NCBI RefSeq assembly: GCF_025642155.1
Contig: NZ_CP106798.1
Location: 8,990,001 to 9,054,000, forward strand
Direction of reading: 5' to 3'
DNA length: 64,000 nucleotides
DNA from: Streptomyces sp. HUAS 15-9
GTDB taxonomy: Bacteria > Actinomycetota > Actinomycetes > Streptomycetales > Streptomycetaceae
The notes below the pieces were generated by a model, which made no database searches, had not been told where the DNA came from, and saw only the letters and a list, made by a program, of their open reading frames with translations. The translations under genes and the position numbers were made by a program. Positions 31,387 to 60,564 of the stretch are shown here, one piece after another (positions within the stretch are counted from its first letter, which is position 1; each line of letters starts with the position of its first letter).

Positions 31387-31400
31387 GGGCCGTTCGGCCT
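31387..31400. promoter_or_regulatory. DevR/OsdR-like box between USP remnant and aldolase
   Basis: GGGCCGTTCGGCCT matches the palindrome GGGCCGnnCGGCCC at 13 of 14 positions. It is placed between the divergent USP remnant (start 31303) and the aldolase gene (start 31558). Confidence 0.6.
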
Positions 31401-31557
31401 CGACGAAGGACCCGACCGGCTCTGCAGGGTGGCAGCTCCACACGGATGATGGACAGGGAACCCGCGACGCGGCCGCACGGACTGTGGCACGTCCTGCCGC
31501 CCCGCATGTGTGCGGCCGCCTCCATCGGCATTCCACAGGACAGGAGAGGCGGAGACC

Positions 31558-32610
31558 ATGACCGACATCCAAGAGTTGCTGGGCGACGAGGCCAAGGACC
31601 TGCTGACGCACTCCGCCCAGGGGATCCCGGGGGAGGATCTGGTGCTACCCGGCCCCGACTTCGTCGACCGGGTCGTGGCCGGCACCGACCGCTCGCCCCG
31701 GGTGCTGCGCAACCTGCAGTCACTCTTCGACCACGGCCGACTGGCCGGCACCGGATACCTGTCGATCCTGCCGGTCGACCAGGGAATCGAGCACTCCGCG
31801 GCGTCGGCGTTCGCCCCGAACCCCCGCTACCTCGACCCCGCGAACATCGTCGAACTCGCCGTCGATGGCGGCTGCAACGCGGTGGCCAGCACACTCGGTG
31901 TGCTCGGCGCCGTGTCGCGGCGCTACGCGCACCGAATCCCCTTCATCGTCAAGCTCAACCACAACGAGCTGCTCACCTACCCGAACCACTACGACCAGAT
32001 CCTGTTCGGCGATGTCCAGCAGTGCTTCGACCTCGGCGCGGCAGGCGTCGGCGCCACGGTCTACTTCGGCTCGGAACAGTCGGACCGCCAACTGCGGGAG
32101 GCCAGCGAGGTCTTCGCCCGGGCCCATGAACTGGGCATGTTCACGGTGCTGTGGTGCTATCTGCGCAACTCGGCGTTCAAGAAGGACGGCGTGGACTACG
32201 CGGTGTCCGCCGACCTCACCGGCCAGGCCAATCATCTCGGCGTGACGATCGAGGCCGACATCGTCAAACAGAAACAGGCGGAGAACAACGGTGGCTACCG
32301 CGCGCTGGGCTTCGGCAAGACCCACCCGCTGCTGTACGACAGGCTCACCACCGACCACCCGATCGACCTCACGCGCTGGCAGGTCGCCAACTGCTACATG
32401 GGCCGCGTCGGCCTGATCAACAGCGGCGGCGCCTCGGCCGGCCAGGGAGACCTGGCCCAGGCGGTACGGACCGCGGTGATCAACAAGCGGGCCGGCGGCA
32501 CCGGCCTCATCACCGGCCGCAAAGCCTTCCAGCGCCCCACCGCCGAGGGCATCGAGCTCCTGCACGCCGTCCAGGACGTCTACCTCGACGAGAGTGTCAC
32601 CGTCGCCTGA
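31558..32610 (+). CDS. fbaB: Class I fructose-bisphosphate aldolase (FbaB/DhnA type)
   Basis: A 350-residue Schiff-base aldolase that splits fructose 1,6-bisphosphate into two triose phosphates without a metal. Diagnostic stretches are [93 protein letters not shown] and the phosphate-binding [14 protein letters not shown]. Length equals that of E. coli FbaB. ATG at 31558 follows GGAGAGGCGGAGACC. An island box lies 158 bp upstream and a strong terminator follows. Class I aldolases are often used in place of class II enzymes under stress or gluconeogenic conditions. Confidence 0.92.
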
Positions 32611-32635
32611 CGGGGGCGTGGCCGGACGCCCGGCA

Positions 32636-32669
32636 CCGGCGCCCAGGACACAATGCCCCTGGGCGCCGG
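32636..32669. terminator. Strong terminator after the aldolase gene
   Basis: CCGGCGCCCAGG (32636-32647) and CCTGGGCGCCGG (32658-32669) form a perfect 12-bp stem with a 10-nt loop. It sits between the convergent aldolase and SpoIIAA-like genes and probably serves both. Confidence 0.8.
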
Positions 32670-32780
32670 GCGCGGCCCGCCGATGCCGGCCCGGGCGTCT
32701 CGGTGTGTCTCAGACCGGCATCGCCTCACCGATGCGGACGGGGCATCCGGCGGGCCGTGCGGCCCAGGGTGGCTGCCACG

Positions 32781-33548
32781 TCAACCCGCGTCCGGAGGGT
32801 TACGGTCGGGCGGATTCGCGGCCCAGGCGACTGCGTCGTCGAGTTGGGCGTATGTGAACTGCCGTACTTCGGCCTGGACGAAGTGGTTCGCGAAATGAGG
32901 GACGAGTTCGGCGAGCTTGCTGTCGGCGGCCAGGGCGATCCTCCTGACCTTGCGATGGTGGTCGCGGACGAAACGTACATGCCGGAGCAGGCTTCCGATG
33001 TTCTCCCATCCCGGGAAGGCGCGAGCGTGTACCACGACACCGGCCAGTGCGTCGTGGGTTTCGAGCCAGCTGTCGGCGGTCTGTGCCAGTGCGTCGAAGT
33101 CCTGTGCGCGCAGGGGCTGTTCGACCTCGACCACGAGCACGTTGGACTCGGGCAGGAGCTCGTGGGACACGCCGGGCCCTTCGGGCAGTGAGGCGAGCCA
33201 GCGCAGCGCCTCTTCGCGATCCTGAAGGCCGAAGACGCGTACCGGACAAGGCATCAGGAAGCTTGCGAGGCGGGTCGACTCTTGGATCCAGCTGATGTCG
33301 CTGACGACCGCGCATCCCTCGAACAGGTGCATGGCGCCGATCCCGATCTTGAGGTCCTCCCATCCGGCCGCCGGGGTGAACGACCGGAATTCCGGGCCGA
33401 TCTCCGACAGGATCCGGATGCGGCGGCCTGCTCTGCGGGCTTCGTCGACGAGCGGCTCGATCACCGCTTTGTAATCGTTCTTCGACACCGTGCCGATCGC
33501 CTTGACCACGTCGACCCCCGAGGGCACGTCTCGGGCTCTCTCAAGCAT
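32781..33548 (-). CDS. Tandem SpoIIAA-like protein
   Basis: A 255-residue cytoplasmic protein made of two SpoIIAA-like (STAS-related) domains. Domain 1 spans about 12-125: SKNDYKAVIEPLVDEARRAG, RIRILSEIGPEFRSFTP, WEDLKIGIGAMHLFEGCAVV and the WIQESTRLASFLMPCPVRVF helix-strand. Domain 2 spans about 135-245: LPESNVLVVEVEQPLRAQDF, GVVVHARAFPGWENIGSLLR, KVRRIALAADSKLAELVPHF. Single-domain forms are common; the fused pair is unusual. ATG at 33548 follows AAAGGAT. It could bind a lipid or act in partner switching, but no phosphorylatable serine of the classical motif is evident. Confidence 0.78.
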   Translation of the reverse strand: MLERARDVPSGVDVVKAIGTVSKNDYKAVIEPLVDEARRAGRRIRILSEIGPEFRSFTPAAGWEDLKIGIGAMHLFEGCAVVSDISWIQESTRLASFLMPCPVRVFGLQDREEALRWLASLPEGPGVSHELLPESNVLVVEVEQPLRAQDFDALAQTADSWLETHDALAGVVVHARAFPGWENIGSLLRHVRFVRDHHRKVRRIALAADSKLAELVPHFANHFVQAEVRQFTYAQLDDAVAWAANPPDRNPPDAG

Positions 33549-38818: not shown

Positions 38819-39853
38819 CTAGCAGATGCGTGGCAGTTGCTCTCCCAGAGGCATGTCCACGATGCGCCGGGCCCCGACCAGCGTCCGCAGAGTCACCCGT
38901 CCTTGCGGACCCTCTGGGAGCACCGCGCCGATCCGCGCCGCCTGCGCGCCCTCGGGCAGGGAGCGCAGCGCCGCGAGGGTCTCCTCGGCCGCGGCGGCGT
39001 CGACGAACGCGACCAGGCAGCCCTCGTTGGCGACCGCCAGCGGATCCAGTCCCAGCAGGTCGCACGCGGCGGACACCGCTCCAGGCACCGGGACCGCCCG
39101 CTCATCGATCTCGATGGCGACCGACGAGTCGCGGGCGATCTCGTTGAGAGAGGCGGCCAGCCCGCCCCGGGTCGGGTCGCGCAGCACGTGGACGGCACCG
39201 CCCAGCGGCACCAGCGCCCGCACCAGCCGATGCAGTGGCTTCGAGTCGGAGGCGATGTCAATGTCGAAGCCCAGGCCCTCCCGGGTGCTGAGCACGGTAG
39301 TGCCGTGCAGCCCGATCGGACCGGACAGCAGCACCGCGTCCCCGGGGCGAGCCGACGCGGCGGAGGGGGACAGCGACGCGTGCCGCTGCCCGATCCCCGT
39401 GGTGGTGATGAACAGCCGGTCGACCGCACCGCGCCCTACGACCTTGGTGTCCCCGGTGACCACGGGCACCCCCACGTCCTCGGCTGCCTTCCCCAACGAC
39501 TCCATCACGGTCCGCAGTTCGGCGAGCGGCAGCCCCTCCTCGACGATCAGGGACACCGACAGGGCCAGCGGCCACGCACCCCGCATCGCCAGATCGTTGA
39601 CCGTGCCGTGCACGGCGAGGGACCCGATGTCCCCGCCGGGGAAGAACAGCGGACTGACGACGAAGCCGTCGGTGCTCATCACCAGCTCCGGACGGCCCGG
39701 CAGCGTTGCCGCGTCCTCCAGCGGGCCCGGCGTGCCACCCAGGGCGGGCAGCACCAGCCCATCCAGCAGTTCCGCGGTGAGGCGGCCGCCGGCGCCGTGG
39801 CCGAGGAGCACGACCTCGTCCTCGTGGTTCGGGCTCGGGCAGTCGATGGTCAT
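38819..39853 (-). CDS. hypE: Hydrogenase maturation protein HypE
   Basis: A 344-residue PurM-like ATPase that dehydrates a thiocarboxamide on its own C-terminal Cys to the cyanide ligand of the [NiFe] centre. The protein ends in PRIC, the essential C-terminal cysteine motif. Other signatures are [36 protein letters not shown] and [15 protein letters not shown] (ATP site), [12 protein letters not shown] and [21 protein letters not shown] at 39853 overlaps the hypD stop (ATGA) and has GAGGAG 6 nt upstream. It is the last gene of the operon. Partner: HypF donates the carbamoyl group. Confidence 0.96.
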
Positions 39854-40953
39854 GCCGTGCTCCTCGTCGGGGTGCGTCCGGCCGCGTGGAAGGCGGCACA
39901 GGTCCCCTCGGACGACACCATGGGGGCGCCGAGGGGGTGGCGGGGCGTACAGCGGGTGCCGTAGGCGGCGCAGTCGGTGGGCAGTCTCGCCCCGGTGAGG
40001 ATCACCCCGGCGACGCACTCCGCATCCTCGGCGGGGGCCAGACCGCTCACGTCGAAGCGGCGGGCCGCGTCGAACCGGCGGTAGAGCGGGGCGAGTTCCA
40101 GACCGCTCCCCGGCAGCGCGCCGATGCCCCGCCAGGCGCGGTCGGTGACCCGGAAGACGCGGCGCACCGTCTCCTGGGCGTCGGTGTTGCCGACGCGGCG
40201 AACGGCGCGCACGTACTGGTTCGCCACCTCGTGCCGGCCGCTCTCCAGCTGCCGTACGGCCATCAGGATGCCCTCCAGCAGGTCCAGAGGCTCGAACCCG
40301 GTCACCACGATGGGCACCTGGTAGCGGGCGGCAATCGGCTCGTACTCCCGCCACCCCATCACCGCGCACACGTGCCCGGCCGCCAGGAACGCCTGCACCT
40401 CGCAGTCCGGGTCGTCGAGCAGCGCAGTCATGGCCGGCGGCACCAGGACATGGCTCACCAGCATCGAGAAGTTGGCCAGCCCGAGCCGCTCCGCGTGCAT
40501 CACGGCCATGGCGTTCGCCGGCGCGGTCGTCTCGAATCCGACGGCCAGGAAAACCACTTGGCGTTCTGGGTGCTCGGCGGCCAGGCGCACGGCGTCCATC
40601 GGGGCGTAGACGACACGCACGTCCGCGCCGCGTGCACGCAGCGACAGCAGGTCGGTGTCCGTGCCGGGCACCCGCAGCATGTCGCCGAAGCTGGTGAAGA
40701 TCACGCCGGGTCGGGCGGCGATGGCCATGGCCCGGTCCAGGGTCTCCAACGGGGTCACGCAGACCGGGCAGCCCGGGCCGTGGATCATCCGCATGCCGGC
40801 GGGCAGCAGCTCGTCGATGCCCTGGCGGACGAGCGTGTGGGTCTGCCCGCCGCACACCTCCATGATCCGCCAGGGGCGCGTGGCGGTCTGCTCCAGCTCG
40901 TCCAGCAGGCGACGGGCGAGCACGGGGTCGCGGTACTCGTCCAGGTATCTCAT
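39850..40953 (-). CDS. hypD: Hydrogenase maturation protein HypD
   Basis: A 367-residue iron-sulfur scaffold protein on which Fe(CN)2CO is assembled with HypC. Key cysteines are Cys34 in MEVCGGQTH and Cys62/Cys65 in [11 protein letters not shown]. The 4Fe-4S ligands near the C-terminus lie in [12 protein letters not shown] and [36 protein letters not shown] and [16 protein letters not shown] are also conserved. ATG at 40953 lies inside a 20-bp tandem duplication. It overlaps the shifted end of the CBS-BON gene by ATGA. Length is normal. Confidence 0.95.
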
Positions 40954-40980
40954 CGGCCTTCCAGGTATCTCATCGGCCGT
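40941..40980. repeat. 20-bp tandem duplication at the hypD start
   Basis: CCAGGTATCTCATCGGCCTT (40941-40960) is repeated at 40961-40980 with one change (CCGT at the end). The repeat contains the hypD start codon and first codons, so MRYLE is encoded twice, the second time as the tail of the frameshifted CBS-BON frame. It looks like a recent slippage duplication. Confidence 0.85.
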
Positions 40981-41636
40981 CCAAGTGGTTCATCGGCAGG
41001 GTCCTTCATCGGTGGGTGAGCTCGAGCCGGACGTCCACGACACCCTCTGTCGCCCGCACCGCCCGCGCGATCACGGGCACCAGGGTGCGGTCGGGCAGCG
41101 AGCTGCTCAGCGTGACCACACCCTCGGCCGCGGACACGGAGAGGGGCACGGTGACGGGCAGCTGGGTCAGGGACGTCCGCGGTGATCTCCCCGTCGGTGT
41201 GCAGGAAGCCCTTCAGTAGATCGCTGCGGCTGACCATCCCCTGCAGCAGGCCGACCGCGTCCACCACGGGAAGCCGCTTGACGTGGCGGCGGGCCATGAT
41301 GCGGGCCGTCTCGGCGAGCGAGGCGTCGGCGTGCACGGTCACGGCCGGCGAGCTCATCGGTCCGCCGACGGTGACCGCGCCCGCCTTGGCCCGGTCCGCC
41401 GGGTCCCGCGGATCGCCAGGGTCGCCGGGACCGCCGGTGTCGCGGAACTCTTCCTTGGGCAGCAGGTCCGCCTCGGATACCAGCCCGACGAGCAGTCCCT
41501 CGTCGGCCAGCACCGGCAGGGCGCTGACCTTCCACCGGTCGAGCAGCTCGACGATCTCCTTGAACGGCGCTTCGCTGTCGACGGCGACGACGTTCTGCGT
41601 CATCACGTCGCTGACCGTGTAGGGAGTTTCAGGCAT
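40950..41636 (-). pseudogene. CBS-pair/BON protein with a 1-bp insertion in the BON domain
   Basis: Two CBS motifs are intact: YTVSDVMTQNVVAVDSEAPF with LLVGLVSEADLL, and MSSPAVTVHADASLAETARI with LLQGMVSRSDLLKGF. After GEITADV the frame is lost. Skipping one base in the GGG at 41170-41172 restores a BON domain: SLTQLPVTVPLSVSAAEGVV, TLSSSLPDRTLVPVIARAVR and EGVVDVRLELTHR with a stop at 41006-41008. As it stands the frame runs on to 40950, overlapping hypD. The CBS part may still be made (228 residues). ATG at 41636 overlaps the large-subunit stop. In the operon it could sense adenylates for the hydrogenase. Confidence 0.8.
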
Positions 41637-42978
41637 CGCAACCCCCTGAGGTACGGACGACCGTCAGGTCGAGGAAGTGGGTGGAGCAGGAGATGCACGG
41701 GTCGTGGTTGCGGATCGCCCGTTCGCACAGCGCCGTCAACTCGCCGTCGTCCGGGTCGTGGTCATGGATGGCCTGCTGGGCCAGGCGCCGCAGATCGTCC
41801 TCGATCGCTCCCTGGTTCTGAGCGGTGGGCGGCACCAGCAGCGCGTCGGTGACCAGGCCCTCGGCGTCGAGCGCGTAGCGGTGGTAGAGCATCCCACGCG
41901 GCGCCTCGGTGGCACCGTGGCCCACTCCCGCGAGGGGCGGCACCTCGGAGTACGGGCGGGCGGGCGGCTCGTAGGAGCCGATGATCCGCAGCGCCTCGTC
42001 GACGGCGTACACCGTCTCCACCGCCCGCACCAGGATGGACCGGTACGGGTTGCGGCACACGGCACCGTCGCGGGGATCGCCCAGCCCGGCCTCGACGGCG
42101 GCCTGCCGGGCCACCGGCGTGAGCCGGCGCCCGCCGATCGCGAACCGGGCGAGGGAGCCGGTGAGGTGCAGCCGCCCGTCGAGCCGGGAGTGCAGCGCGG
42201 TCGAGTGAGCCACCTGGGTCTCGGTGACGTGGTGGGTGAAGTCCCGCACCGGGAAGGAGTCCGTGCTGCCGTCGGCGCGCAGCACAGTCGGGGTGCCGCT
42301 CTCGATCGCGTAGGAGTGCGGGGCGGCGAGCGCCAGCAGGTCGGCGTCGGTGCGGGCGTCGGGGAACTCGAAGCCGGCCACCCACCGTACGGTCGCCCAC
42401 GCATCGTCCAGCGCCCGCTTCAGCTCCTCCGCCAGCGGCCGTAGTTCCTCGCGCGTAGGCGCCCGGTGGAAGCCGCCCAGGCGCACGTTGACCGGGTGCA
42501 CGGCCCGTCCGCCGATCAGCTCCATCAGCGCATTGCCGGCCTTCTTCAGCCGTAGGCCGCGCTCGACCTCGTTCCGGTGCGTGCGCGCGAGGTCGATCGC
42601 GCTCGACCGGCCCAGGAAGTCCGGCGCGTGCAGCAGGTGGATGTGCAGGGTCTGGCTCTCGATCCACTCGCCGCAGTACAGCAGCCTGCGCAGGTCCCGG
42701 ATCACCGGATCGACCGTCACCCCGCAGGCGTCCTCGATCGCCGCGCAGGCGCTCATCTGGTATGCCACCGGGCAGATCCCGCACACCCGGGCCGTGATGT
42801 CCGGCGGCTCGGTGTACGAGCGGCCGCGCAGGAACGCCTCGAAGAAGCGCGGAGGCTCGTAGATCTCCAGCCGGGCCTCGGTGACCGTGCCGTCGTGCAC
42901 GTGCAGGCGCAGCGCGCCCTCGCCCTCGACCCGGGAGAGCGAGCCGACGTGCAGCACACGGGATCCACGGTGGGTCAC
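41629..42978 (-). CDS. hydA: [NiFe]-hydrogenase large (alpha) subunit, group 3b type
   Basis: A 449-residue catalytic subunit. The nickel ligands are Cys66/Cys69 in [11 protein letters not shown] and Cys428/Cys431 in [12 protein letters not shown]. The 15 residues after His434 are the C-terminal peptide that the HycI-type protease should remove once nickel is in place. [16 protein letters not shown] and the proton-path region [13 protein letters not shown] are also typical. The compact size and neighbouring FAD/Fe-S subunits place it with the bidirectional NADP-linked (sulfhydrogenase) group. GTG at 42978 overlaps the small-subunit stop (GTGA). It is cytoplasmic with no Tat signal in its partner. 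Confidence 0.95.
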
Positions 42979-46144: not shown

Positions 46145-46263
46145 GACATCCTCCTCGTTCGGGGCGGCTGCGTACTCCTCCACCGCCAGGTTCGGTTGGT
46201 GCGGGGTGTGCATGGCAGGGGCTGAAGGACCCTGCCGCGAGGCCGGCGGGATCCGCGGCACCT

Positions 46264-46521: not shown

Positions 46522-46527
46522 GTGCAC

Positions 46528-49316: not shown

Positions 49317-49353
49317 ACCTCATACAGTGCACGGACGGCGGTGCGATCTGCAG

Positions 49354-49367
49354 GGGCCGAACGGCCC
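49354..49367. promoter_or_regulatory. DevR/OsdR-like box of the hydrogenase operon
   Basis: GGGCCGAACGGCCC, a 6-2-6 palindrome with perfect arms, lies 38 bp upstream of the first operon gene. Best copy of the motif together with those at 57048 and 60551. Confidence 0.7.
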
Positions 49368-50600: not shown

Positions 50601-51170
50601 TCAGCCCGTCTTGTGACCCCACTGCGGACCGACCAGATCCCACTCCTTGCCCCACTCGTCGATACGCCGCCGGTCCAGCCACAAGCGTGCGGCGCCCCCG
50701 GCACCGAACGCCACACCGGTAACAGCGAGCGCGGACGCGGCTCCCAGGAATCCCGCCTCGATGGCCGCATCCGTGCGGCTCGGCGGTCGGGTGGTGAGGT
50801 TCCCCTGCGTGTTCGTCCAGAGCACCACCGTGGATCCGGCCTTGCGCCCGCCGTCCACCAGGGTCCTGCCGGTGTGGGTGGACCCGCCCGCGCTGGTCCA
50901 GCGGACCTGCACCAGCGCCCGATAGCTCTCCACGTCGGCTCTCGGCGCGTCCGTGAGGAGTACGGCCCGTACGGGGGTGCGCTCGGCGCGTTGCTGCGCG
51001 AAGACGTCGTCCGCGGCCCGGGCTGTCAGCACACCGGCGAGGGTTCCGCCCACCGCGATGAGCGTCCAGACGGCCAGCACGAGCCACGCCTCGAGAACGT
51101 CGGCGCGCCTGCGCAGCCGGTTGGCCCGCCACCGCCAAAGCAACCTCTTCGTTCGCCTGCCTGTACCCAT
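50601..51170 (-). CDS. Rv1733c-like conserved membrane protein
   Basis: A 189-residue protein with two membrane helices: about 30-52 (EAWLVLAVWTLIAVGGTLAG) and about 142-165 (AAIEAGFLGAASALAVTGVA). Between them is an extracytoplasmic domain (VRAVLLTDAPRADVESYRAL, VQVRWTSAGGSTHTGRTLVD, GSTVVLWTNTQGNLTTRPPS). This layout and the sequence match the Rv1733c family, a DosR-regulon product in M. tuberculosis, common in Streptomyces. Function unknown. ATG at 51170 follows GAGGAGG with 9 nt spacing. It is divergent from the nitroreductase gene, with palindrome copies between them. Confidence 0.82.
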   Translation of the reverse strand: MGTGRRTKRLLWRWRANRLRRRADVLEAWLVLAVWTLIAVGGTLAGVLTARAADDVFAQQRAERTPVRAVLLTDAPRADVESYRALVQVRWTSAGGSTHTGRTLVDGGRKAGSTVVLWTNTQGNLTTRPPSRTDAAIEAGFLGAASALAVTGVAFGAGGAARLWLDRRRIDEWGKEWDLVGPQWGHKTG

Positions 51171-51257
51171 CGGGCCGCACCTCCTCGTCGTGGTCGTTTC
51201 GAGCAAGGTGACAGCCGCCCGCGCGTCGCGGCATGGGCCGGACAGGGGGAGCCGTGG

Positions 51258-51271
51258 GGGCCGACCGGAAC
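51258..51271. promoter_or_regulatory. Partial DevR/OsdR-like box upstream of the Rv1733c-like gene
   Basis: GGGCCGACCGGAAC matches 11 of 14 positions of GGGCCGnnCGGCCC. It lies 88 bp before the start at 51170. Confidence 0.4.
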
Positions 51272-51408
51272 CAAGTGCGGAAGTGGGATGGGCCGTTCAG
51301 CCCCGGCCGTCGCAGCCCGTGGGGCACCGCAGGTGTCCGCCCGCGGACCGGCGTGCTCTCCGTTCTCACCACTTCCGTCATCGACGGTCCCTGACCGGCC
51401 ACCCGCCA

Positions 51409-51422
51409 GGGACCATCGGCCC
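51409..51422. promoter_or_regulatory. DevR/OsdR-like box upstream of the Acg-type gene
   Basis: GGGACCATCGGCCC, followed by CT, resembles both the island motif and the mycobacterial DosR half-site GGGACC. It is 78 bp upstream of the nitroreductase start at 51501. A second half-site (GGTCCCTGACCGGCC) is just upstream at about 51386-51400. Confidence 0.6.
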
Positions 51423-51500
51423 CTCACCCGGACGCTGTCGTGCGCCCATTCTCGTAGGACGTCGGTACCTGTTCCGAAACCCGTGTGGGAGGAGGGCACC

Positions 51501-52502
51501 ATGCGATCCGTGCCTCTCGACGCCGAGACCCTGGAAGCCTGCATCGCGGCCGCCGTGGCTGCGCCCTCGTTCTTCAACACCCAGCCCTGGCGCTTCAGGC
51601 TGGACCCCGATATCCCCGCCTTCGAGGTGCGCGCGGCACCGCAGCGGAGCCTGCGTCATGCGGATCCGGTCGGACGGGCGCTCCATCTGTCGGTGGGCGC
51701 GTCCGTCTTCAATCTCCGCGTCGCGGTGTCCCACTTCGGCTGGTCGCCCGTCGTGCGGCTGCTGCCCCGCCCCGAAGAGCCCGGCCTGCTCGCCACCGTC
51801 CGGCCCGCGGGATCAAAGAGCCTGCACACCGCCGAATGCCGTGGCGATCTCTACTCGGCGATCTGGCGCAGGCACAGCAGTCGCTTCCCGTTCTCCGGCA
51901 CACCACTGCCGGCGCAGGCACGCGCCGAACTCGCCGACGCCGCCCACACGGAAGGCGCCTCACTGACCTTCCCCGAGGTCGCCGAGACGGTACGTCTGCT
52001 GCGCGTGACCGAGGAGGCCGAGCACCGCAATCGCGCCGACGCCGACCGCGGCACGGAGAGCCGCCGCTGGGTGCACCGGGAGTCGGACGATCCGTTCGAC
52101 GCCGGCCTCCCGCAGACGGCGCTCGGCCCGCAGGACGCGCGCGAACGCATTCCCATGCGGGACTTCACCGCCGCACGGCACCCCGGGCGGCTGTCGGCCC
52201 AGGACTTCGAGACCGCCCCGGCCGTCGCCCTGCTCAGGACCGAGCACGACCGTCGCACGGACTGGCTGCGCGCAGGAGAGGCACTCGAGCACGTCCTGCT
52301 GGTGGCCACGGCCCTCGGACTGCGTGCGTCCCTGCTGCACCAGCCGATGGAATGGCCCGACCTGCGCCGCTTCCTGAGCCCGGAACCCGACCACACCGGT
52401 CACGCGCAGATGCTGATCCGCCTCGGCTACGGCCGGGAGGGCCCCGCCACCCCGCGGCGCGCCCCGCAGGCGGTACTGGACGCGGAGAGGCCGAACCGAT
52501 AG
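51501..52502 (+). CDS. Acg-family nitroreductase-like protein
   Basis: A 333-residue protein of the Acg/Rv2032 group: a fused double nitroreductase fold in which one FMN site is covered by a lid. Diagnostic parts are LEACIAAAVAAPSFFNTQPW-RFRL, HADPVGRALHLSVGASVFNL, IWRRHSSRFPFSGTPLP, DWLRAGEALEHVLLVATALG and LHQPMEWPDLRRFL, ending AQMLIRLGYGREGPATPRRA. Members are typical hypoxia/dormancy proteins and may sequester FMN rather than reduce a substrate. ATG at 51501 follows GGGAGGAGG. The upstream palindrome supports control by the island regulator. Confidence 0.9.
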   Translation: MRSVPLDAETLEACIAAAVAAPSFFNTQPWRFRLDPDIPAFEVRAAPQRSLRHADPVGRALHLSVGASVFNLRVAVSHFGWSPVVRLLPRPEEPGLLATVRPAGSKSLHTAECRGDLYSAIWRRHSSRFPFSGTPLPAQARAELADAAHTEGASLTFPEVAETVRLLRVTEEAEHRNRADADRGTESRRWVHRESDDPFDAGLPQTALGPQDARERIPMRDFTAARHPGRLSAQDFETAPAVALLRTEHDRRTDWLRAGEALEHVLLVATALGLRASLLHQPMEWPDLRRFLSPEPDHTGHAQMLIRLGYGREGPATPRRAPQAVLDAERPNR

Positions 52503-52534
52503 CCCGTTCCCGTCGGGGGGGCGGGCGGCTCCGG

Positions 52535-52929
52535 TCAGTTCGTCCCCGTGCAGACGGCGTCCTCGTGGGGAGCAATGGAGAGAGCCGGGGCAGGCCGGGG
52601 TGGATCTCGAAGACGCCGGCCAGGCAGGTGCTCGGCAGTACGTGCAGGCTGCGGCTGGTGTCGGCGACCAGCCGCAGCCTGCCCTGCCGGGCCAGCACCC
52701 GGTTCCTCGCCCGGCACGGCAGCCGTAGTTTGCTGCAGTCGATGAAGGTCACGGGGCGCAGGTCGAGCACCAGGTCGGGGCACGGGCCGACGCTCAGGGT
52801 GTCGAGGCGCGCCGGAAGCGGCGACGCCGTGAGGATGTCGATCTCGCCGTGCACCTCGACCACCAAAGTCGTGCCGCCGACGACGTGTTCCGTGTGGCAG
52901 GTCGTGGGCCTGGTGTGGGTTTCGGCCAT
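52535..52929 (-). CDS. STAS-domain anti-sigma factor antagonist-like protein, probable frameshift near its end
   Basis: A single STAS domain of about 115-130 residues: LVVEVHGEIDILTASPLPAR, LVLDLRPVTFIDCSKLRLPC and GRLRLVADTSRSLHVLPSTC with LAGVFEIHPGL. The phosphorylatable serine is present in FIDCS, but the following residue is Lys where Gly is nearly invariant, and the next is Leu. The open frame continues 270 bp into the nitroreductase gene on the other strand. A shift near 52590 gives ALSIAPHEDAVCTGTN and a stop at 52535, a more normal end, so an indel is likely. ATG at 52929 has no good ribosome site. A box lies 35 bp upstream. Confidence 0.65.
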
Positions 52930-52963
52930 AGACAGAGCAGAGCGGGGTGTCGGGCGTGACGGA

Positions 52964-52980
52964 AGGGCCGGTCGGTCCCT
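52964..52980. promoter_or_regulatory. DevR/OsdR-like box upstream of the STAS gene
   Basis: AGGGCCGGTCGGTCCCT combines the GGGCCG and GGTCCC half-sites in inverted order. It is 35 bp upstream of the STAS start. Confidence 0.55.
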
Positions 52981-52990
52981 GTGCGGACGG

Positions 52991-53018
52991 GTGACGGGTG
53001 ACGGGTGACGGGTGACGG
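52991..53018. repeat. Four tandem copies of GTGACGG
   Basis: The heptamer GTGACGG is repeated four times without change at 52991-53018, next to a GGACGG partial unit. It lies between the STAS box and the USP fragment. Copy number may vary by slippage. Confidence 0.9.
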
Positions 53019-53116
53019 GCGGCCCCATGTGATCGCACACGGTGAGCCGGGGTCGCTCTCAGGCAGGGGCGTGACCGATGACCCCATTCCACCTTCAACT
53101 GCTCGCCAGAACATGA

Positions 53117-53425: not shown

Positions 53426-53463
53426 CCCGGATCACCACGGCAGCTGAACAGGCCTTCGCCGCA

Positions 53464-53477
53464 GGGACGTTCGGCCC
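53464..53477. promoter_or_regulatory. DevR/OsdR-like box upstream of the DoxX gene
   Basis: GGGACGTTCGGCCC followed by T, 112 bp before the DoxX start. One half-site differs from the perfect palindrome by an A. Confidence 0.55.
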
Positions 53478-53588
53478 TGGACCGTGGGCCGCGCAGCCCC
53501 TCCGACGCCGGCTGTCGAAGCGAGACATTGAAGAGGCAACGAGAGTCGTCAACAACCCCCGTGTCGCCCCTGGAAAGGGATGAGCACC

Positions 53589-54215
53589 ATGGCAGTCCAC
53601 GATCAACCGCACCGGCATGTGCGGTTCCACCTCCCGTCGATGCGCAGGCCGACGACAACTCAGCGGCCCGCCGACGAGACCAACGCCGTCGCACTCACGG
53701 CCACCAGCGCACACGTCCTCGCCGGGCTGCGTGTGCTGACCGGGTTCGTCTTCCTGTGGGCGTTCCTGGACAAGACGTTCGGCTTCGGTTACGCGACCCC
53801 GTCCGGTAAGGGCTGGATCGACGGCGGTTCGCCGACCAAGGGTTTCCTCAGTTCGGTCGCCGCCGGGCCGATGGAGTCGACGTTCCACGACTGGGCGGGT
53901 GCCGGCTGGGCGGACTGGCTGTTCATGCTCGGTCTGCTCGGCATCGGCCTGGCGCTGGTGAGCGGGATCGCGCTGCGGCTCGCGGCGGTGGCCGGTAGCG
54001 CCATGATGGCGTTGATGTGGATCGCCGAGTGGCCGCCCGCCAAGCACTTGTCCGATGGCTCGTTGAGCATGTCGACCAATCCGTTCGCCGACTACCACCT
54101 CGTCTACGCCGTCGTCCTGATCGCCCTGGCGGCCGTGGGCGCCGGTGCCACCTGGGGGCTGGGCAGGGCCTGGGCGCGGCTGCCGTTCGTCAGCCGCAAC
54201 CGCTGGCTTCTGTGA
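53589..54215 (+). CDS. DoxX-family membrane protein
   Basis: A 208-residue protein with four membrane helices: AGLRVLTGFVFLWAFLDKTF, DWLFMLGLLGIGLALVSGIA, LAAVAGSAMMALMWIAEW and YHLVYAVVLIALAAVGAGA. The loop YATPSGKGWIDGGSPTKGFL and the segment STNPFADYHLVYA are conserved in actinobacterial DoxX/TQO-small-like proteins, which are thought to act in thiol or quinone redox at the membrane. A cytoplasmic N-terminal tail of about 45 residues precedes TM1. ATG at 53589 has AAAGGG 9 nt upstream; the ATG three codons earlier abuts that site. A box lies upstream and a strong terminator follows. Confidence 0.85.
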   Translation: MAVHDQPHRHVRFHLPSMRRPTTTQRPADETNAVALTATSAHVLAGLRVLTGFVFLWAFLDKTFGFGYATPSGKGWIDGGSPTKGFLSSVAAGPMESTFHDWAGAGWADWLFMLGLLGIGLALVSGIALRLAAVAGSAMMALMWIAEWPPAKHLSDGSLSMSTNPFADYHLVYAVVLIALAAVGAGATWGLGRAWARLPFVSRNRWLL

Positions 54216-54765: not shown

Positions 54766-55114
54766 CGACGTCGTGATCACCGCGGCCCAAGTTCCGGGCC
54801 GCAAGCCGCCGTTGCTGGACACCGCCGCCGTCGTCGAGGGGATGAAGCCCGGCTCGGTGGTCGTCGACCTCGCCGCGAGCGAACTCGGCGGCACCGTCGA
54901 GGGATCCGATCCTGACAAGACGACCGTCCTGGACAGGGGCGTCACCGTCATCGGCGCCGGACGCCTGCCGTCCGCGATGGCGACCGCGTCGTCGACGGCC
55001 TACGCCCGCAACCTCGTTGCGCTCCTGCGTCACCCCGTGCGGGACGGCGAACTCGTCCTCGACCCGGGCGACGAGATCACGGCCGCGCCACGGGAGCAGC
55101 CTCCTCATGAACAA
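54766..55114 (+). pseudogene. NAD(P) transhydrogenase subunit PntA, C-terminal fragment
   Basis: DVVITAAQVPGRKPPLLDTA, GMKPGSVVVDLAASELGGTV, GVTVIGAGRLPSAMATASST and AYARNLVALLRHPVRDGELV match the end of the soluble alpha subunit of Re/Si-specific NAD(P) transhydrogenase. It is fused directly to the oxidoreductase fragment before it, so a deletion joined two different genes. Confidence 0.75.
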
Positions 55115-55139
55115 CCTCGATCTCTCACCGCGATCACCG

Positions 55140-55348
55140 TCTCGTGCTGAGCGTCGAGGTCATCAGCAAGGTCCCCGCGACCCTGCACACACCCCTGATG
55201 TCCGGCTCGAACTCCGTGCCCGGCATCGTCGTCATCGGCGCGAAGCTGATCGCGGCCGAGCTGCACACCTGGCTCGGCCACATCCTCGCTTTCGCGGCCA
55301 TGGCGTTCGGCGCGATGAACGTCGTCTGCGGGTACGTCGTCACCGACC
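55140..55348 (+). pseudogene. NAD(P) transhydrogenase membrane subunit (PntAB), central fragment
   Basis: LSVEVISKVPATLHTPLMSG, SNSVPGIVVIGAKLIAAELH and LGHILAFAAMAFGAMNVVCG with YVVTDR match the four-helix alpha-2 subunit, complete except for its first 20 or so residues. It follows the PntA fragment in the natural gene order. After VVTDR the sequence changes to the reverse-strand pyruvate:ferredoxin oxidoreductase remnant. Confidence 0.75.
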
Positions 55349-55349
55349 G

Positions 55350-56011
55350 GACGCCACACCGTGGCGGCGATCCCGGCCACGGCGCCGGCGGAGAGCGTGT
55401 TGCCGCGGCGGGCCGTGCGCGGGTGGTTCATCAGGTGCGGCCGAGGCCGCGGCCGGGAACCCGGGCTGTGGAAGGTCAGCTCCCCGAGCCGCCCGGCGAT
55501 CGCGTCGTCGAACAGCCGGTGCAGCGACTCCTTCGAGATCGCCGGCCCGCCGAGCCCGGCGACCACGGTGTGCCCGTCGAGCAGCCGCGCGGCCAGGCCG
55601 CCCAGCAGGACGGCGTTCGGCACGGGTCGGCCGAAGTGGCGTATGGCGAGTGCGGTGGCCGGGACCGTGAGAGCATGGCTCGCGAGATCCGCGAGGCCCA
55701 GGTCGCCCACGGGGCGCGGCGAGTTGATCAGCACTGATCCGCCGCCGGGCCGCAACCCTTCGAAGAGTTCACCTGGTGTAGCAGCGTGGGATGCTGGACC
55801 AGCAGCGCATCGGGCCGGGTGACGGGCTCGCGCACCTGGATCGGCCAGTCGTCGATCCGGCAGAATGACACGACCGGTGCCCCCGTCCGTTCCGATCCGA
55901 AGCTCGGGAACGCCTGCGTGTGGCGGTCCTCCATGAACGCGCCACCGACAACAATTCCGTGGCCGTGACCGCGCCCTGGCCGCCACGGCCGTGGATGCGA
56001 ACCTGGAACAC
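55350..56011 (-). pseudogene. 2-oxoacid:ferredoxin oxidoreductase (gamma/alpha) remnant
   Basis: The gamma part begins at a GTG with QVRIHGRGGQGAVTATELL, then in another frame FMEDRHTQAFPSFGSERTGA and VREPVTRPDALLVQHPTLLH, then in a third SVLINSPRPVGDLGLADLAS and IRHFGRPVPNAVLLGGLAA. It then jumps to HTVVAGLGGPAISKESLHRL, the end of an alpha (PorA) subunit. So a gamma-alpha deletion fusion with two further frameshifts. Pyruvate oxidation by ferredoxin would suit a hypoxic island. Confidence 0.7.
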
Positions 56012-56047: not shown

Positions 56048-56938
56048 TCAGTCGTGCGGGACGATCACGACCGGGCAGCGGACGTGGTGCATCACCGCGT
56101 GCGCGACCGGCCCGGTGCGCGCGCCGAGCCTGGCAGGACGGCTCCTGCGGCCGACGACCAGCAGGCCGGCGTCCTGCGCGGCATGCAACAACTGCTGTGC
56201 CGGGCGCTCGTGCTCCACCAGCGTCCGGACCTCCACCGTCGGGTACTTCTGCCGCCATGGCTGGAGAGCGCGGGCCAACTCCTGTTCGGCGGTCCGCTGC
56301 GCGGCGAGGCTCATCGCGGCGGCCTCCGCGGCCGGAGCGTAGGGAACGTGCCATGCGTGCACGACCAGCAGCGGCGCGGAGCGCATCGACGCGCTCTCGA
56401 AGGCGAATGCGATGAGCTCCCCGCACGGATGGGCGGTGTCCACACCGACGACCACGTCGCGGTACGGAGTGTGCACCGACGGTCGCCCCTCGTCGTTCGG
56501 CAGATGGTCGTCCTCGGCGGTCCGGCCGGCCCGTACGAGCACGACGGGCCGGGTCACCCGAGCCACCGTCGCGAGCGCCACCGAGCCGGCCATGAAGCCG
56601 CCGAGCCCGCTGAACGCCCGGCTGCCCAGGACCAGAAGCTCGGCCTCCGCACCCGCCTCGACGAGTGCGTCCGCCGCGGGGCGGGCGATCTGCTCGGCAC
56701 TGAGATAGACCTGCGGGTGGCGCTCGTTGAGCTGGTCCATGGCCCCGCGCAGGATCCGCCGCGCCCAGTAGTGCGGCGCTTCGAGTTCGGGCAGCTGGGA
56801 CGCGTCGGAAGGCAGGCCCTCCCACGCGTGCACAAGACGCAGCGGCAGTCCGCGCAGCAATGCCTCCCCGGCCGCCCACTCGGCGGCAGCGAGGCTCTCA
56901 CGTGAACCGTCCAGACCTACGACAACGGGGCGAAGCAC
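56048..56938 (-). CDS. Tandem-domain universal stress protein
   Basis: A 296-residue protein with two UspA domains. Domain 1 (about 1-145) starts RPVVVGLDGSRESLAAAEWA and carries the ATP-loop GSRAFSGLGGFMAGSVALAT. Domain 2 (about 155-296) starts YRDVVVGVDTAHPCGELIAF and ends VGRRSRPARLGARTGPVAHA with VIVPHD. Tandem USPs bind ATP and are the hallmark of dormancy regulons. GTG at 56938 has GGGGAGG 8 nt upstream; a start further upstream would lack it. A perfect island box lies 110 bp before the start. This is the only intact USP in the window. Confidence 0.9.
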   Translation of the reverse strand: MLRPVVVGLDGSRESLAAAEWAAGEALLRGLPLRLVHAWEGLPSDASQLPELEAPHYWARRILRGAMDQLNERHPQVYLSAEQIARPAADALVEAGAEAELLVLGSRAFSGLGGFMAGSVALATVARVTRPVVLVRAGRTAEDDHLPNDEGRPSVHTPYRDVVVGVDTAHPCGELIAFAFESASMRSAPLLVVHAWHVPYAPAAEAAAMSLAAQRTAEQELARALQPWRQKYPTVEVRTLVEHERPAQQLLHAAQDAGLLVVGRRSRPARLGARTGPVAHAVMHHVRCPVVIVPHD

Positions 56939-57047
56939 GGCCACCACCTCCCCGGATCGATGTCCGCCCATCTCTCGGCGGACCTCTGCACCACCAGCGT
57001 CTCGGCGAAGACACCCGCCCGGGCAGGGGCTGCGTGGCCTGGGAAAC

Positions 57048-57061
57048 GGGCCGGACGGCCC
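57048..57061. promoter_or_regulatory. DevR/OsdR-like box upstream of the USP gene
   Basis: GGGCCGGACGGCCC, perfect 6-bp arms with a 2-bp centre, 110 bp before the USP start on the minus strand and 162 bp before the truncated CBS-BON gene on the plus strand. Confidence 0.65.
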
Positions 57062-57222
57062 CCTGTCGCTGCTCGCGCCGGGTCGGACCAGCAGCTCAAT
57101 GAGAGTCCACCGGAACCCTGTACCGGGCTGCTCGGCCTATGCCGACGGCGGGCGCGTGCCCGACGCTGAAGGTGTCGCGCCAGACGAGCACGCCGTGCGA
57201 CACGAGCACATGGGAGGACGCC

Positions 57223-57519: not shown

Positions 57520-57564
57520 ACGGAGCCCCAACCAGCAGGCACCGACGGGGCGTTGGGGTGCCAG

Positions 57565-57599
57565 GGGCCGACCGGGCCCGGTACGGGTCCGGTCGGCCC
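57565..57599. promoter_or_regulatory. Two DevR/OsdR-like boxes upstream of the second Hsp20 gene
   Basis: GGGCCGACCGGGCCC (57565-57579) and GGGTCCGGTCGGCCC (57585-57599) are two imperfect copies of the island palindrome, starting 20 bp apart (about two helical turns). They end 62 bp before the Hsp20 start. Confidence 0.5.
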
Positions 57600-57661
57600 A
57601 CGCGCGTCCCGCGTCGGCGGGGGACGCTGGAAGTGGCCAAGAAGAAGAGGAGGAGGGAGAC

Positions 57662-58084
57662 ATGACTGGCATGATCGAGCGGCTGCCGGGCTGGCCGACC
57701 CTGCCCGACCTGTTCGGCTGGGTCGAGTCCGGCTTCCCCGGGGCGCATACGGTCCCCGGACTGCACGGCATCCGCATCGAAGAGCACCTGGCGGACGAGA
57801 ACTACGTGCTGCGGGCGGAGCTCCCGGGCATCGACCCCGCCAAGGATGTCGAAATCACCGTCACGGAAAGCGTTCTGACCCTACGGGCGGAGCGCAGTGG
57901 GGAGACGACGCAGAAGCACCGCACGGAGTTCCACTACGGGACCTTCGCCCGCTCCGTCCGGCTGCCGGCCGGGGCCAAGGGCGACGAGGCCACTGCCGAG
58001 TACAGGGACGGTGTCCTGACCGTCACGATCCCGGTGCCCGAGACGAAGACGGGCACGAAGACCATCCCGGTGCGGTACGGCTGA
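57662..58084 (+). CDS. Hsp20 small heat-shock protein (second copy)
   Basis: A 140-residue chaperone with the alpha-crystallin domain at about 35-135: IRIEEHLADENYVLRAELPG, DVEITVTESVLTLRAERSGE, FHYGTFARSVRLPAGAKGDE and AEYRDGVLTVTIPVPE, ending in a KTIPVRYG tail, an IxV-type anchor (IPV). It is only distantly similar to the Hsp20 at 28494, so not a recent duplicate. It resembles the acr/HspX group of dormancy regulons. ATG at 57662 follows GAGGAGG. A strong terminator lies 27 bp after the stop. Confidence 0.92.
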   Translation: MTGMIERLPGWPTLPDLFGWVESGFPGAHTVPGLHGIRIEEHLADENYVLRAELPGIDPAKDVEITVTESVLTLRAERSGETTQKHRTEFHYGTFARSVRLPAGAKGDEATAEYRDGVLTVTIPVPETKTGTKTIPVRYG

Positions 58085-58144: not shown

Positions 58145-58262
58145 TATGCCCGGGCCGGCCGGTTGCTGGGCCGGGGGGCTCTTTCCGAGTCCCTTCGGCC
58201 CAGCGACCGGAACGCTCGGTTCCGTCGAGGGTGGAGACGCACGCAGTGGAGGGAGAGGAGCC

Positions 58263-59154: not shown

Positions 59155-59416
59155 GGGCAGTTTCCTCATGCGGACACCGCCCCGATACGGCGGTGAGACC
59201 GCCCAGCTCCCGTCCCATCGTCCTCCGGATCCGGGAGACAGGGACGCCGCACCCGGACGGGAACCCTGGCACGGCCGGACGGTGGACTCCGGAGAACGGG
59301 CGCTCGTCCGTTCAGCTTGTCCGTCTTCCGGCGTGACTCATCACAGTTCCGCCACGTGGTGACTCCGCCCAGGCCGACGCCGACCACGGCCCCTCCGCCC
59401 GGAGGAGAACAACCGC
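59155..59416. other. Intergenic spacer
   Basis: No gene is seen between the phosphoribosyltransferase remnant and the IS110 fragment. The last 20 bp include the GGAGGAG ribosome site of the transposase. Confidence 0.4.
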
Positions 59417-59600
59417 GTGACCATGCTCGCAGAACACATCGACGGCGTCTTAGGAGTCGACACCCACCGCGACGCACCCGCCACAGCCGCCGTCAGCCCC
59501 ATAGGCGCCGTCCTGGAGACCACCGACGCACCCGCTCTGGTGGGGCCGGCCCGAAGGCGTGCGCAGATCCCGGGGGGATCCGGCTGCCGCGGAGTCCTGG
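59417..59600 (+). mobile_element. IS110-family transposase, N-terminal fragment
   Basis: GTG at 59417 (GGAGGAG upstream) then TMLAEHIDGVLGVDTHRDAP followed by ATAAVSPIGAVLETTDAPA, the start of an IS110-type transposase with the first catalytic Asp in GVDTHRD. RRAQIPGG matches a piece further on, with the part between partly lost. Nothing of the C-terminal domain remains. Confidence 0.75.
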
Positions 59601-59977
59601 GGCGACGGGTTTCCCGTATCCGCCTCGTGATCGCCGCCTCCTGCCGGTTGATCCGCGGAATGCCGGTGATGTCCGGCACCCCGGATACCCATGAATCCCG
59701 GCCCGAGGCAGAACGCGCCGTCATGAGGACATCGACCCCGGACCACGAGCCGGGTCGCGCACGGTTCCGGGTCCGATCGGCCCACGCCGTGCGGGCGGGC
59801 GCGGAGCGGGCCGGACCGTGAGAAGCGGAGCATCATCCGAAGAGCTGGGGCCAGTCACCACGTTGAACGCCGGGTAGAGGGGCAACCGCGCTCATGGACC
59901 GACCACACCCGACTCGGGATGGGCCGGCCGGTGCTTCCGGTGGCCGACAGGATTCGGCGGGCCCGTCCGACGCGGTG
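59601..59977. other. Gene-free region
   Basis: No recognisable gene, repeat or promoter. It follows the IS110 fragment and ends at the stop of the secreted protein gene. Confidence 0.4.
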
Positions 59978-60475
59978 TCAACCGTCGGCGCGGATACCGG
60001 AGATCAGCTGCGACTCGAGGTCGGACTGGATCATCAGGTGGGTGCGCCGGACCCGGTCACCGGAGTCCTGCCAGGTGAGCGTGACCCTGGTCCAGCAGTG
60101 CCCCGTCCCGCTGTCGTTGTAGACGACCTCCCAGGCGATCGGCGCGCCCTTGGCGCGCAGTACGCCGTCCTTGTGGTGGGCGCTCTCCCACCGCGCCAGG
60201 TTCGCGCGCAGGCCGACGGTCAGGTAATGGGCGCGCAGAGCGTTGGCCAGCCCGTTGCGACCGGAGTCGTACAGGACGTCGACGTAGGCGCCGTAGAAAT
60301 CGGCGACCCGGTCGACGGCGGAGCGCGGACTGCCCTTGCGGGCCGGTGCGGTCGTCGCGGCGACGCTGGCCCCGGCGTCCGTACGGCCGCCGGTCGCGGC
60401 CGCAGGCGCCGACGCCGCGAGCGCCAGCACCACGCCGCCCAGCGCGACACGGCGGACGGCACGAGGTGTCATCAT
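59978..60475 (-). CDS. Secreted protein of unknown function
   Basis: A 165-residue protein with a signal peptide: MMTPRAVRRVALGGVVLALA followed by ASAPAAATGG with likely cleavage near APAAA-TG. The mature part (AVDRVADFYGAYVDVLYDSG, LANALRAHYLTVGLRANLAR, GTGHCWTRVTLTWQDSGDRV, THLMIQSDLESQLISGIRA) has alpha-then-beta character that could be a cone-shaped NTF2-like fold, but I do not recognise a family for certain. ATG at 60475 follows GAGGAG. A perfect island box lies 76 bp upstream, so it may be an exported part of the hypoxia response. Confidence 0.72.
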   Translation of the reverse strand: MMTPRAVRRVALGGVVLALAASAPAAATGGRTDAGASVAATTAPARKGSPRSAVDRVADFYGAYVDVLYDSGRNGLANALRAHYLTVGLRANLARWESAHHKDGVLRAKGAPIAWEVVYNDSGTGHCWTRVTLTWQDSGDRVRRTHLMIQSDLESQLISGIRADG

Positions 60476-60550
60476 GGTCGTTCTCCTCTCCTGCAGCAGC
60501 GCAGACTTGTCCTCAACTCCAGTACACCGCAGGCAAGTTGCCGTCATCAC

Positions 60551-60564
60551 GGGCCGACCGGCCC
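60551..60564. promoter_or_regulatory. DevR/OsdR-like box upstream of the secreted-protein gene
   Basis: GGGCCGACCGGCCC with perfect 6-bp arms, 76 bp before the start at 60475. A second partial copy (GGGGCCGGTCGGTC) follows at about 60570-60583. Confidence 0.65.

Follow-up and report, generated by a model that had tools for sequence, protein, structure and literature searches.

A stretch of 64,000 nucleotides of Streptomyces sp. HUAS 15-9 (C1:8990001-9054000 of a 9.6 Mb genome in three contigs; this whole stretch, with a G+C content of 70%, is called the window here) repeats a short palindrome of the GGGCCGnnCGGCCC type in front of several stress genes and a [NiFe] hydrogenase operon. This raises the question which regulator reads the palindrome and which genes it would bring together. 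Judged from their sequence and position, the palindromes are very probably binding sites of response regulators of the OsdR/DevR type, which would mark a set of stress and low-oxygen genes; we infer that the boxes are bound and that the boxed genes respond to oxygen in this strain.

OsdR-type boxes in the window

The published OsdR consensus, AGGGCCGATCGGCCCT, was derived from 12 Streptomyces with sites tested by gel shift, and phosphorylated OsdR binds such boxes (PMC5069765). The palindromes of the window equal this 16-bp consensus or come close to it, in agreement with the DevR/OsdR-type identity proposed in a preliminary description of the window. They were scored with a symmetrised matrix built from the 25 S. 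coelicolor sites in Table 1 of PMC5069765 and hence independent of the window, with a main threshold of at least 12.5 bits; thresholds of at least 11, 10.5 and 8 bits were also used.

All nine main palindromes of the preliminary description are present. Three of them (49354, 57048, 60551) match GGGCCGNNCGGCCC exactly and five (31387, 52965, 53464, 57565, 57586) differ by a single base, while the site at 51409, GGGACCATCGGCCC, has two mismatches, yet scores 15.7 bits. Eight of the nine reach at least 12.5 bits; the ninth (57585) scores 11.6 bits. The coordinates given earlier are right for 10 of 13 sites, with 52964, 57585 and 19290 one base early, and of four weaker copies those at 19290 (10.8 bits) and 51258 (9.4 bits) are moderate, whereas 24780 (5.8 bits) and 4664 (1.4 bits) are not credible. 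Three boxes were absent from that list, at 16140 (16.7 bits), 51289 (12.7 bits) and 59769 (13.3 bits). At 32752, a gap between converging genes holds an exact 14-mer that has G at its centre and reaches only 9.1 bits. The boxes precede genes for an aldolase, an Acg nitroreductase, a STAS protein, a DoxX protein, a universal stress protein, Hsp20 and a predicted secreted protein as well as the hydrogenase operon. The reported distances of 35-160 bp between box and start codon hold with the starts that we chose; for the STAS frame this requires the start at 52929 and not the longest frame.

The position of the sites relative to genes was evaluated by scanning the window together with 20 random core, 20 random arm and 20 mostly motif-bearing stretches of 20 kb each, the last selected for carrying the motif. 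Genes were called with our own script, without a standard gene finder, and decayed stretches and the STAS frame were left out; the boundaries between arms and core (1.5 and 8.1 Mb) were set after the site list was known. At 12.5 bits or more, the window has 11 sites in the 19 kb outside called genes and none in the 44 kb inside. The random core (400 kb) has none outside (57 kb) and seven inside (342 kb), the random arms have two outside (71 kb) and five inside (328 kb), and the motif stretches, as expected from their selection for the motif, have 30 outside and five inside. Column-permuted palindromic matrices (n=60) gave a mean of 0.5 window sites outside genes at this threshold. An equal frequency of the motif in genes and promoters, which would have spoken against a regulatory role, was thus looked for in the window and about 1.1 Mb of the rest of the genome, and the window does not have it. 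Of the 12 window sites that lie outside genes and reach at least 11 bits, one falls in a converging gap and 11 in promoter-bearing gaps, which make up 76% of the gap length. Together with 35 gap sites from the motif stretches, 45 of 47 are in promoter-bearing gaps and two in converging gaps; as promoter-bearing gaps account for about 84% of that length, about seven of the 47 would be expected in converging gaps by our arithmetic. Four of the 39 motif-stretch sites outside genes at this threshold remained unclassed; they presumably lie outside the span of the called genes. We take the window sites to be promoter elements.

Boxes also tend to occur in pairs. Second boxes of at least 4 bits at a spacing of 20-24 bp, about two helical turns, were found in 14 cases against 1.4 expected for 51 boxes outside genes, an expectation that is approximate since the set is enriched for motif-rich stretches. 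In the window, a degenerate second box (a 14-mer at 53486 with one mismatch) lies 22 bp beyond the 53463 box, and the 60550 box has a weak partner of 7.3 bits 21 bp away (60572). The pairing fits the cooperative binding of DevR to adjacent high- and low-affinity sites (PMC3029386). The 30 unidirectional sites among 41 were also searched for a second box with a fixed direction and for a motif conserved downstream; apart from the box itself, only weak pairing on either side stood out.

OsdR-type regulators and DevS/DosT-like kinases

The regulator had been expected outside the window, and this is borne out: no OsdR-type gene was found in the window at E <= 1e-20, and three such regulators are encoded elsewhere in the genome (C1:8488508, 8310540 and 1453122), with 100, 74 and 72% identity and the next best match at 45%. 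For the one regulator that was compared with solved structures, the best match is DevR of M. tuberculosis (E 7e-82, against 8.4e-42 for the next). The TVKN stretch of its recognition helix is identical to DevR and the same in all three paralogues. Two of the regulators have a box before their own start, at -117 (11.4 bits, locus L013) and at -90 (18.4 bits, locus L008).

The kinase adjoining one regulator matches the haem GAF domains of DosT and DevS with its N-terminal GAF domain (E 1.4e-55 and 2.7e-52); of the eight chains listed, five match in this way and three match its C-terminal part. A second DevS/DosT-like kinase, in locus L004, aligns with the first along its length and lies under a 21.8-bit box that it shares with a divergent pyridoxamine-oxidase-like gene. 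Read from the alignment, both kinases keep the residues at the positions of DevS His149 and Tyr171, which we take to be the haem ligand and the distal tyrosine.

The earlier proposal of a single regulator holds for its type; as to number, any of the three paralogues, alone or together, may act. As the TVKN stretch is common to the three close paralogues, the sequence does not separate their sites. It is quite possible, though somewhat short of an even chance, that the paralogues bind in mixtures, with overlapping regulons and with the tandem spacing choosing the actor, which would refine the OsdR assignment and not exclude it. The presence of three paralogues with at least two DevS-like kinases, and of both single boxes and 20-24 bp pairs, would suit such an arrangement; the identical TVKN stretch, by which their sites look alike, speaks against it.

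It is improbable that a different response regulator of the NarL/LuxR type, rather than one of the OsdR/DevR type, uses the palindrome. The OsdR-type query has 34 matches in the genome at E <= 1e-20, of which 31 lie outside the close group, and related regulators can have similar half-sites. The OsdR types are, however, distinct from these relatives by the identities given above, two of the three are boxed 90 to 117 bp before their own start, and OsdR of S. coelicolor has been shown to bind a site of this type in vitro, more weakly after point mutations (PMC5069765).

Around the osdR genes, several metabolic genes were observed. A full pyruvate formate lyase (L011:3407-6399; TIGR01255, 1149 bits, above the cut-off) with its activating enzyme is divergent to one OsdR paralogue, which is unexpected in an aerobe; the box in the promoter is weak (7.1 bits). 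In the open-access literature searched, no paper was found that joins Streptomyces, pyruvate formate lyase, hypoxia and universal stress protein. Pyruvate phosphate dikinase and GAPDH, named by eye from their N-termini, are also encoded around the osdR genes.

Conservation of the box at orthologous targets

Promoters of homologues were compared for two target genes (30 loci for each, drawn from the 75 and 126 genomes that had matches). Upstream of Acg nitroreductase homologues, a box of at least 10.5 bits was found in 27 of 30 cases and one of at least 12.5 bits in 26, own gene included, and in 15 of the 27 it is placed between -84 and -91 relative to the inferred start. For the secreted protein the box was present in two of 30, the window gene and its one close orthologue (70% identity, genome G184). 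As the other 28 homologues are distant (identity up to about 60%), this is weak evidence either way, and the box alone does not carry the family into the regulon. The idea that the motif defines membership for genes of unknown function therefore fares unevenly, well for Acg and poorly for the secreted protein.

The hydrogenase operon

The genes from 49316 to 38819 encode, in this order, a protease, HypF, HypC, the beta subunit, a cyclic-nucleotide-binding protein, the gamma, delta and alpha subunits, a CBS protein, HypD and HypE, and their spacing suggests one operon holding all four subunits and the maturation genes. Among solved structures, the alpha subunit is closest to sulfhydrogenase 1 alpha (E 6.5e-65), followed by Mvh (4.6e-45) and the NAD-reducing hydrogenase (1.6e-35). 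The sulfhydrogenase type comes ahead of groups 1, 3c and 3d, and we place the hydrogenase with group 3b. Its scores stay far below the NCBIfam equivalog cut-offs for sulfhydrogenase 1 or 2 (254.6 of 700 and 233.9 of 880), so that the enzyme is a relative and not the archaeal sulfhydrogenase itself. As in sulfhydrogenases of group 3b (PDB 9nez, 9e15), there are four subunits, and the large subunit aligns over 11-436 of 449 residues.

A second copy of the hydrogenase, at C1:155420, is boxed too. Within the family, 53 of 200 genomes, own included, have the hydrogenase at E <= 1e-60. Scored were 54 operons: the one in the window, the second own copy and 52 loci from 51 genomes. Two partial matches in G021 were left out, as was L138, since L001 holds that operon together with its promoter; contig ends truncate L129 and L151, and only two genes were called in L130 and in L146. 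For each operon, the stretch up to about 400 bp from its called start, taken as the first gene of an unbroken run, was searched for boxes; in L099 this search scored an internal gap, and a box before its hycI was seen in the promoter comparison. A box of at least 10.5 bits was found at 22 of the 54 operons (2/2 own and 20/52 from relatives), compared to 1/186 random core and 7/206 random arm promoters of the own genome. As the boxed operons are related, the 22 are not independent events. In the relative G156, the box agrees with that of the window in 14 of 14 core positions and in its location, centred 45 bp ahead of the start, while the surrounding promoter has diverged; the G184 box has the same core at 44 bp, one base nearer the start.

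Two further features of these operons were noted. In 42 of 54 operons, the beta and gamma genes are separated by a gene of about 154 codons, recognised by length only. The corresponding protein of the window (44532-44996) resembles by eye, at its N-terminus, two 154-aa proteins encoded near osdR genes (L008:7517-7981 and L013:1050-1514). A role of this small cyclic-nucleotide-binding protein as a second input signal is possible. Between hypC and the beta gene, L099 and L104 carry a strong second box (L099:8668, 19.0 bits, reverse complement; L104:8621, 21.8 bits), which suggests an internal promoter of the hydrogenase operon.

Weighing chance against regulation

A number of points weigh against the assignment of the boxes to OsdR. 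Counted as a bare consensus, the box is only marginally above chance in the window, with 51 matches at up to two mismatches against 38.2 +/- 5.4 in shuffled sequence and one of 100 shuffles reaching 51. Across the genome, the exact pattern has 32 sites and its reversed control 26; for the full 16-mer palindrome AGGGMCSNNSGKCCCT the two counts are eight and six, and for the looser GGGMCSNNSGKCCC 125 and 150. At 8 bits or more, sites in the random core (nine in 57 kb outside genes, 73 in 342 kb inside) have no preference, and in the random core and arm stretches lower thresholds generally gave no clear promoter preference. The top permuted matrix of the 60 reached 10 sites outside genes, presumably because some permutations nearly rebuild the motif. 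The status of a site as outside genes depends on our own gene calls; the longest STAS reading (52234-53040) would contain the 52964 site. As the motif-hit loci were selected by the motif itself, their enrichment is not an independent result, and the same applies in part to the pairing statistics. No classical -10 hexamer was found at a constant distance from the box; TAnnnT occurs downstream of the box in five of 57 oriented rows, at 38, 39, 39, 61 and 62, with two rows sharing one hexamer. The intergenic region between the third OsdR paralogue and pflB (L011) has only the 7.1-bit box, which leaves that paralogue without a clear autoregulatory site. Furthermore, 32 of the 54 hydrogenase operons have no box at 10.5 bits or more; with most operons unboxed, control of the hydrogenase by OsdR would be lineage-dependent and not universal. 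Finally, an OsdR type (E <= 1e-58) is present in 51 of 52 hydrogenase-bearing genomes and also in 19 of 20 hydrogenase-less genomes of the genus (20 listed of 147), so that their co-occurrence is uninformative.

Counting of the bare consensus was dropped as a test since it is near chance in G+C-rich DNA, and because the bare, 16-mer and looser patterns stay near their control counts, the claim rests on the matrix and the position of the sites. Four of the 32 exact places fall inside the 64-kb window, where about 0.2 would be expected (our arithmetic, Poisson ~7e-5, post hoc). That the palindromes are chance matches in DNA of 70% G+C would accommodate the bare counts, but is very unlikely: chance sites should track gene density, as in the random core with its strong sites all inside genes, whereas all 11 strong sites of the window lie outside; the G156 box is an identical island at the same distance in a diverged promoter; and 27 of 30 Acg homologues are boxed. 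Least probable of all is a structural role of the palindromes in RNA or DNA, for example as terminators or recombination sites. Near-perfect inverted repeats would suit such a role, but a loop of 2 bases on a 6-bp stem is too tight for a hairpin to form, and terminators would favour converging gaps, where only two of 47 sites lie against the seven or so expected.

Other boxed genes and distribution over the genome

The OsdR-type boxes are not confined to the neighbourhood of the window, and the description of the regulon as local has to be given up. The stricter pattern GGGMCGWNCGKCCC has 28 forward and 23 reverse matches in the genome against 16 and 17 for the reversed control. They correspond to 34 places, 15 below 1.5 Mb, 12 above 8.1 Mb (five in the window), six between and one on contig C2, i.e. 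boxes are spread over both chromosome arms and one 249-kb contig. With a cut chosen after the listing was known, 27 of the 34 lie in the outer 29% of the main contig. An exact box at C2:26666, on the 249-kb contig, was observed about 60 bp upstream of a FAD-linked oxidase gene, through which the regulon may extend to an extrachromosomal element.

Among the 20 targets scanned elsewhere in the genome, boxes precede genes for universal stress proteins, a flavohaemoglobin-like protein, VKOR, a CBS/BON protein, a sulfate-permease-family transporter, an alcohol dehydrogenase, an acetyltransferase/CoA-ligase protein, a nitroreductase and others. On the other side of the boxed VKOR gene lies a hemerythrin gene, at least 373 bp away. 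This spectrum resembles the published DevR/OsdR spectrum.

Features of the window

The coordinates of the boxes and genes are collected in Table 1. The STAS frame (52234-53040) encodes a STAS domain and, after it, a long tail rich in arginine and proline, which suggests a frameshifted or truncated gene. Two stretches contain remnants. At 29572-30296, the phosphofructokinase profile is matched in two overlapping frames, by one over positions 116-179 and by the other over 178-257. Neither frame yielded a match to the N-terminal part of the profile, and thus this looks like a decayed gene. At 54773-55737, AlaDh_PNT_C and PNTB_4TM pieces of a pyridine nucleotide transhydrogenase lie in different frames with stops around them, apparently a decayed gene amid the boxed cluster. 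The DoxX-family protein (53580-54215) has no Pfam or NCBIfam match.

Table 1. Predicted OsdR-type boxes and genes of the window (positions are those of the window)
Feature	Position	Strand	Evidence or remark
High-scoring box outside called genes	16140-16155		16.7 bits; no clear target
Moderate box before P-type ATPase gene (16399-19128, Pfam)	19290-19305		10.8 bits
OsdR-type box	31386-31401		13.5 bits; 156 bp upstream of aldolase gene 31558-32610
DeoC/LacD-family aldolase	31558-32610	+	PF01791, E 1.3e-58
hypE (name from context)	38819-39853	-	AIRS/AIRS_C
hypD	39850-40953	-	PF01924, E 2.9e-144
CBS-domain protein	40950-41636	-	PF00571
Hydrogenase alpha (large) subunit, group 3b-like	41629-42978	-	Best solved structure sulfhydrogenase 1 alpha, E 6.5e-65
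Hydrogenase delta (small) subunit	42975-43727	-	PF01058; best NCBIfam sulfhyd_ShyD/HydD, below cut-off
Hydrogenase gamma subunit, NAD(P)-binding	43729-44535	-	PF00175
Cyclic-nucleotide-binding-domain protein, 154 aa	44532-44996	-	PF00027, E 3e-11
Hydrogenase beta subunit, 4Fe-4S	44993-46213	-	PF17179; best NCBIfam sulfhyd_HydB, below equivalog cut-off
hypC	46264-46527	-	PF01455
hypF	46528-48813	-	Five HypF-type domains
Hydrogenase maturation protease (HycI-like)	48810-49316	-	PF01750, E 2.2e-09
Box	49353-49368		16.6 bits; 36 bp upstream of hycI, first hydrogenase-operon gene
Weaker box	51257-51272		9.4 bits; 32 bp from 51289 box
Box	51289-51304		12.7 bits; within 51080-51501 promoter region
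Box	51408-51423		15.7 bits; ~78 bp upstream of Acg-type nitroreductase (59 bp if start 51483)
Acg-family FMN-binding nitroreductase	51501-52502	+	NF047509, 299.8 bits (cut-off 199)
STAS-domain frame, proposed start 52929	52234-52929	-	PF01740, E 8.7e-08; C-terminal part doubtful; not picked by gene caller
Box before STAS frame	52964-52979		15.1 bits; inside longest, unlikely, reading of the frame
Strongest window box, before DoxX-like gene	53463-53478		20.5 bits
DoxX-family membrane protein	53580-54215	+	Several of 120 listed homologues named DoxX family
Universal stress protein, two Usp domains	56048-56971	-	PF00582, E 1.7e-42
Box	57047-57062		15.3 bits; ~76 bp upstream of universal stress protein gene (108 bp if start 56938)
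First box of tandem pair before hsp20, 21 bp apart	57564-57579		13.65 bits
Second box of hsp20 tandem pair	57585-57600		11.6 bits
Hsp20/alpha-crystallin	57662-58084	+	PF00011, E 7.9e-19
Box	59769-59784		13.3 bits; no clear target
Protein called secreted in the preliminary description	59978-60475	-	No Pfam match; box kept in 70% orthologue of G184
Box	60550-60565		14.5 bits; ~75 bp upstream of secreted-protein gene

Relation to known systems and implications

The closest known system is the OsdR/OsdK regulon of S. coelicolor (Urem et al. 2016, PMC5069765). It has the same box, its targets include universal stress proteins, a nitroreductase, pyridoxamine oxidase, hemerythrin and dehydrogenases, as observed here, and in both organisms regulator and kinase lie together, with clustered sites around osdR (PMC5069765). 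In contrast to S. coelicolor, the present strain has three OsdR paralogues and a hydrogenase operon boxed in two copies; the word hydrogenase is absent from the main text of PMC5069765. The mycobacterial DosR/DevR system shares the regulator, the kinase, Acg, universal stress proteins and a beta-gamma-delta-alpha hydrogenase operon, which is induced by low oxygen in mycobacteria, and M. smegmatis has two DevR/DevS copies, comparable to the several found here (PMC2799521, PMC8125079, PMC13098282). There, the hydrogenase Hyh (Hyd3) belongs to the dos regulon, with genes up to 67-fold induced at 0.6% oxygen saturation (PMC8125079, PMC13098282, PMC2799521). The M. smegmatis operon is tabulated as beta, gamma, delta, alpha and peptidase (MSMEG_3931-3927; PMC2799521, PMC8125079, PMC13098282), whereas the operon of the window has a cyclic-nucleotide-binding gene between beta and gamma and the maturation genes in the same run. 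The box, the regulator type and most kinds of targets are hence already published, as is the hydrogenase link for mycobacteria in the form of the DosR-dependent Hyh. The group 3b-like [NiFe] hydrogenase operon lies beyond the published list of OsdR targets, and no paper placing a hydrogenase under OsdR in Streptomyces was found in the open-access literature searched; of two papers that came up for this pairing, one uses the word for a NADH enzyme and the other concerns spinach.

Falling oxygen or a changed redox state would lead the haem GAF kinase to phosphorylate OsdR, which would then dimerically occupy the boxes, in some cases two of them spaced by about two helical turns, and switch on a stress and low-oxygen programme. 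In the window, this programme would comprise the universal stress protein, Hsp20, the Acg nitroreductase, DoxX, the aldolase and the group 3b-like [NiFe] hydrogenase operon. The hydrogenase could pass reducing power between NAD(P)H and H2; by analogy only, its direction may be the evolution of H2, disposing of electrons.

A further-reaching idea is put forward tentatively, and we consider it more doubtful than not. In some streptomycetes, OsdR might run a whole low-oxygen fermentation programme with an H2-evolving group 3b hydrogenase, the aldolase and alcohol dehydrogenases, and with pyruvate phosphate dikinase, GAPDH and pyruvate formate lyase around osdR, graded by the three paralogues and the 20-24 bp tandem boxes, with the cyclic-nucleotide-binding protein adding a second signal. 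If true, organisms regarded as strict aerobes would turn out to be facultative producers of hydrogen in dormancy. Independently of this idea, control of the hydrogenase by OsdR would widen the published list of OsdR targets from stress genes and nitrate respiration to hydrogen metabolism. The same link between regulator and hydrogenase exists in M. smegmatis, which suggests that actinobacteria have in common a means of shedding reducing power when oxygen is lacking; the boxed promoters offer concrete targets for testing in soil bacteria.

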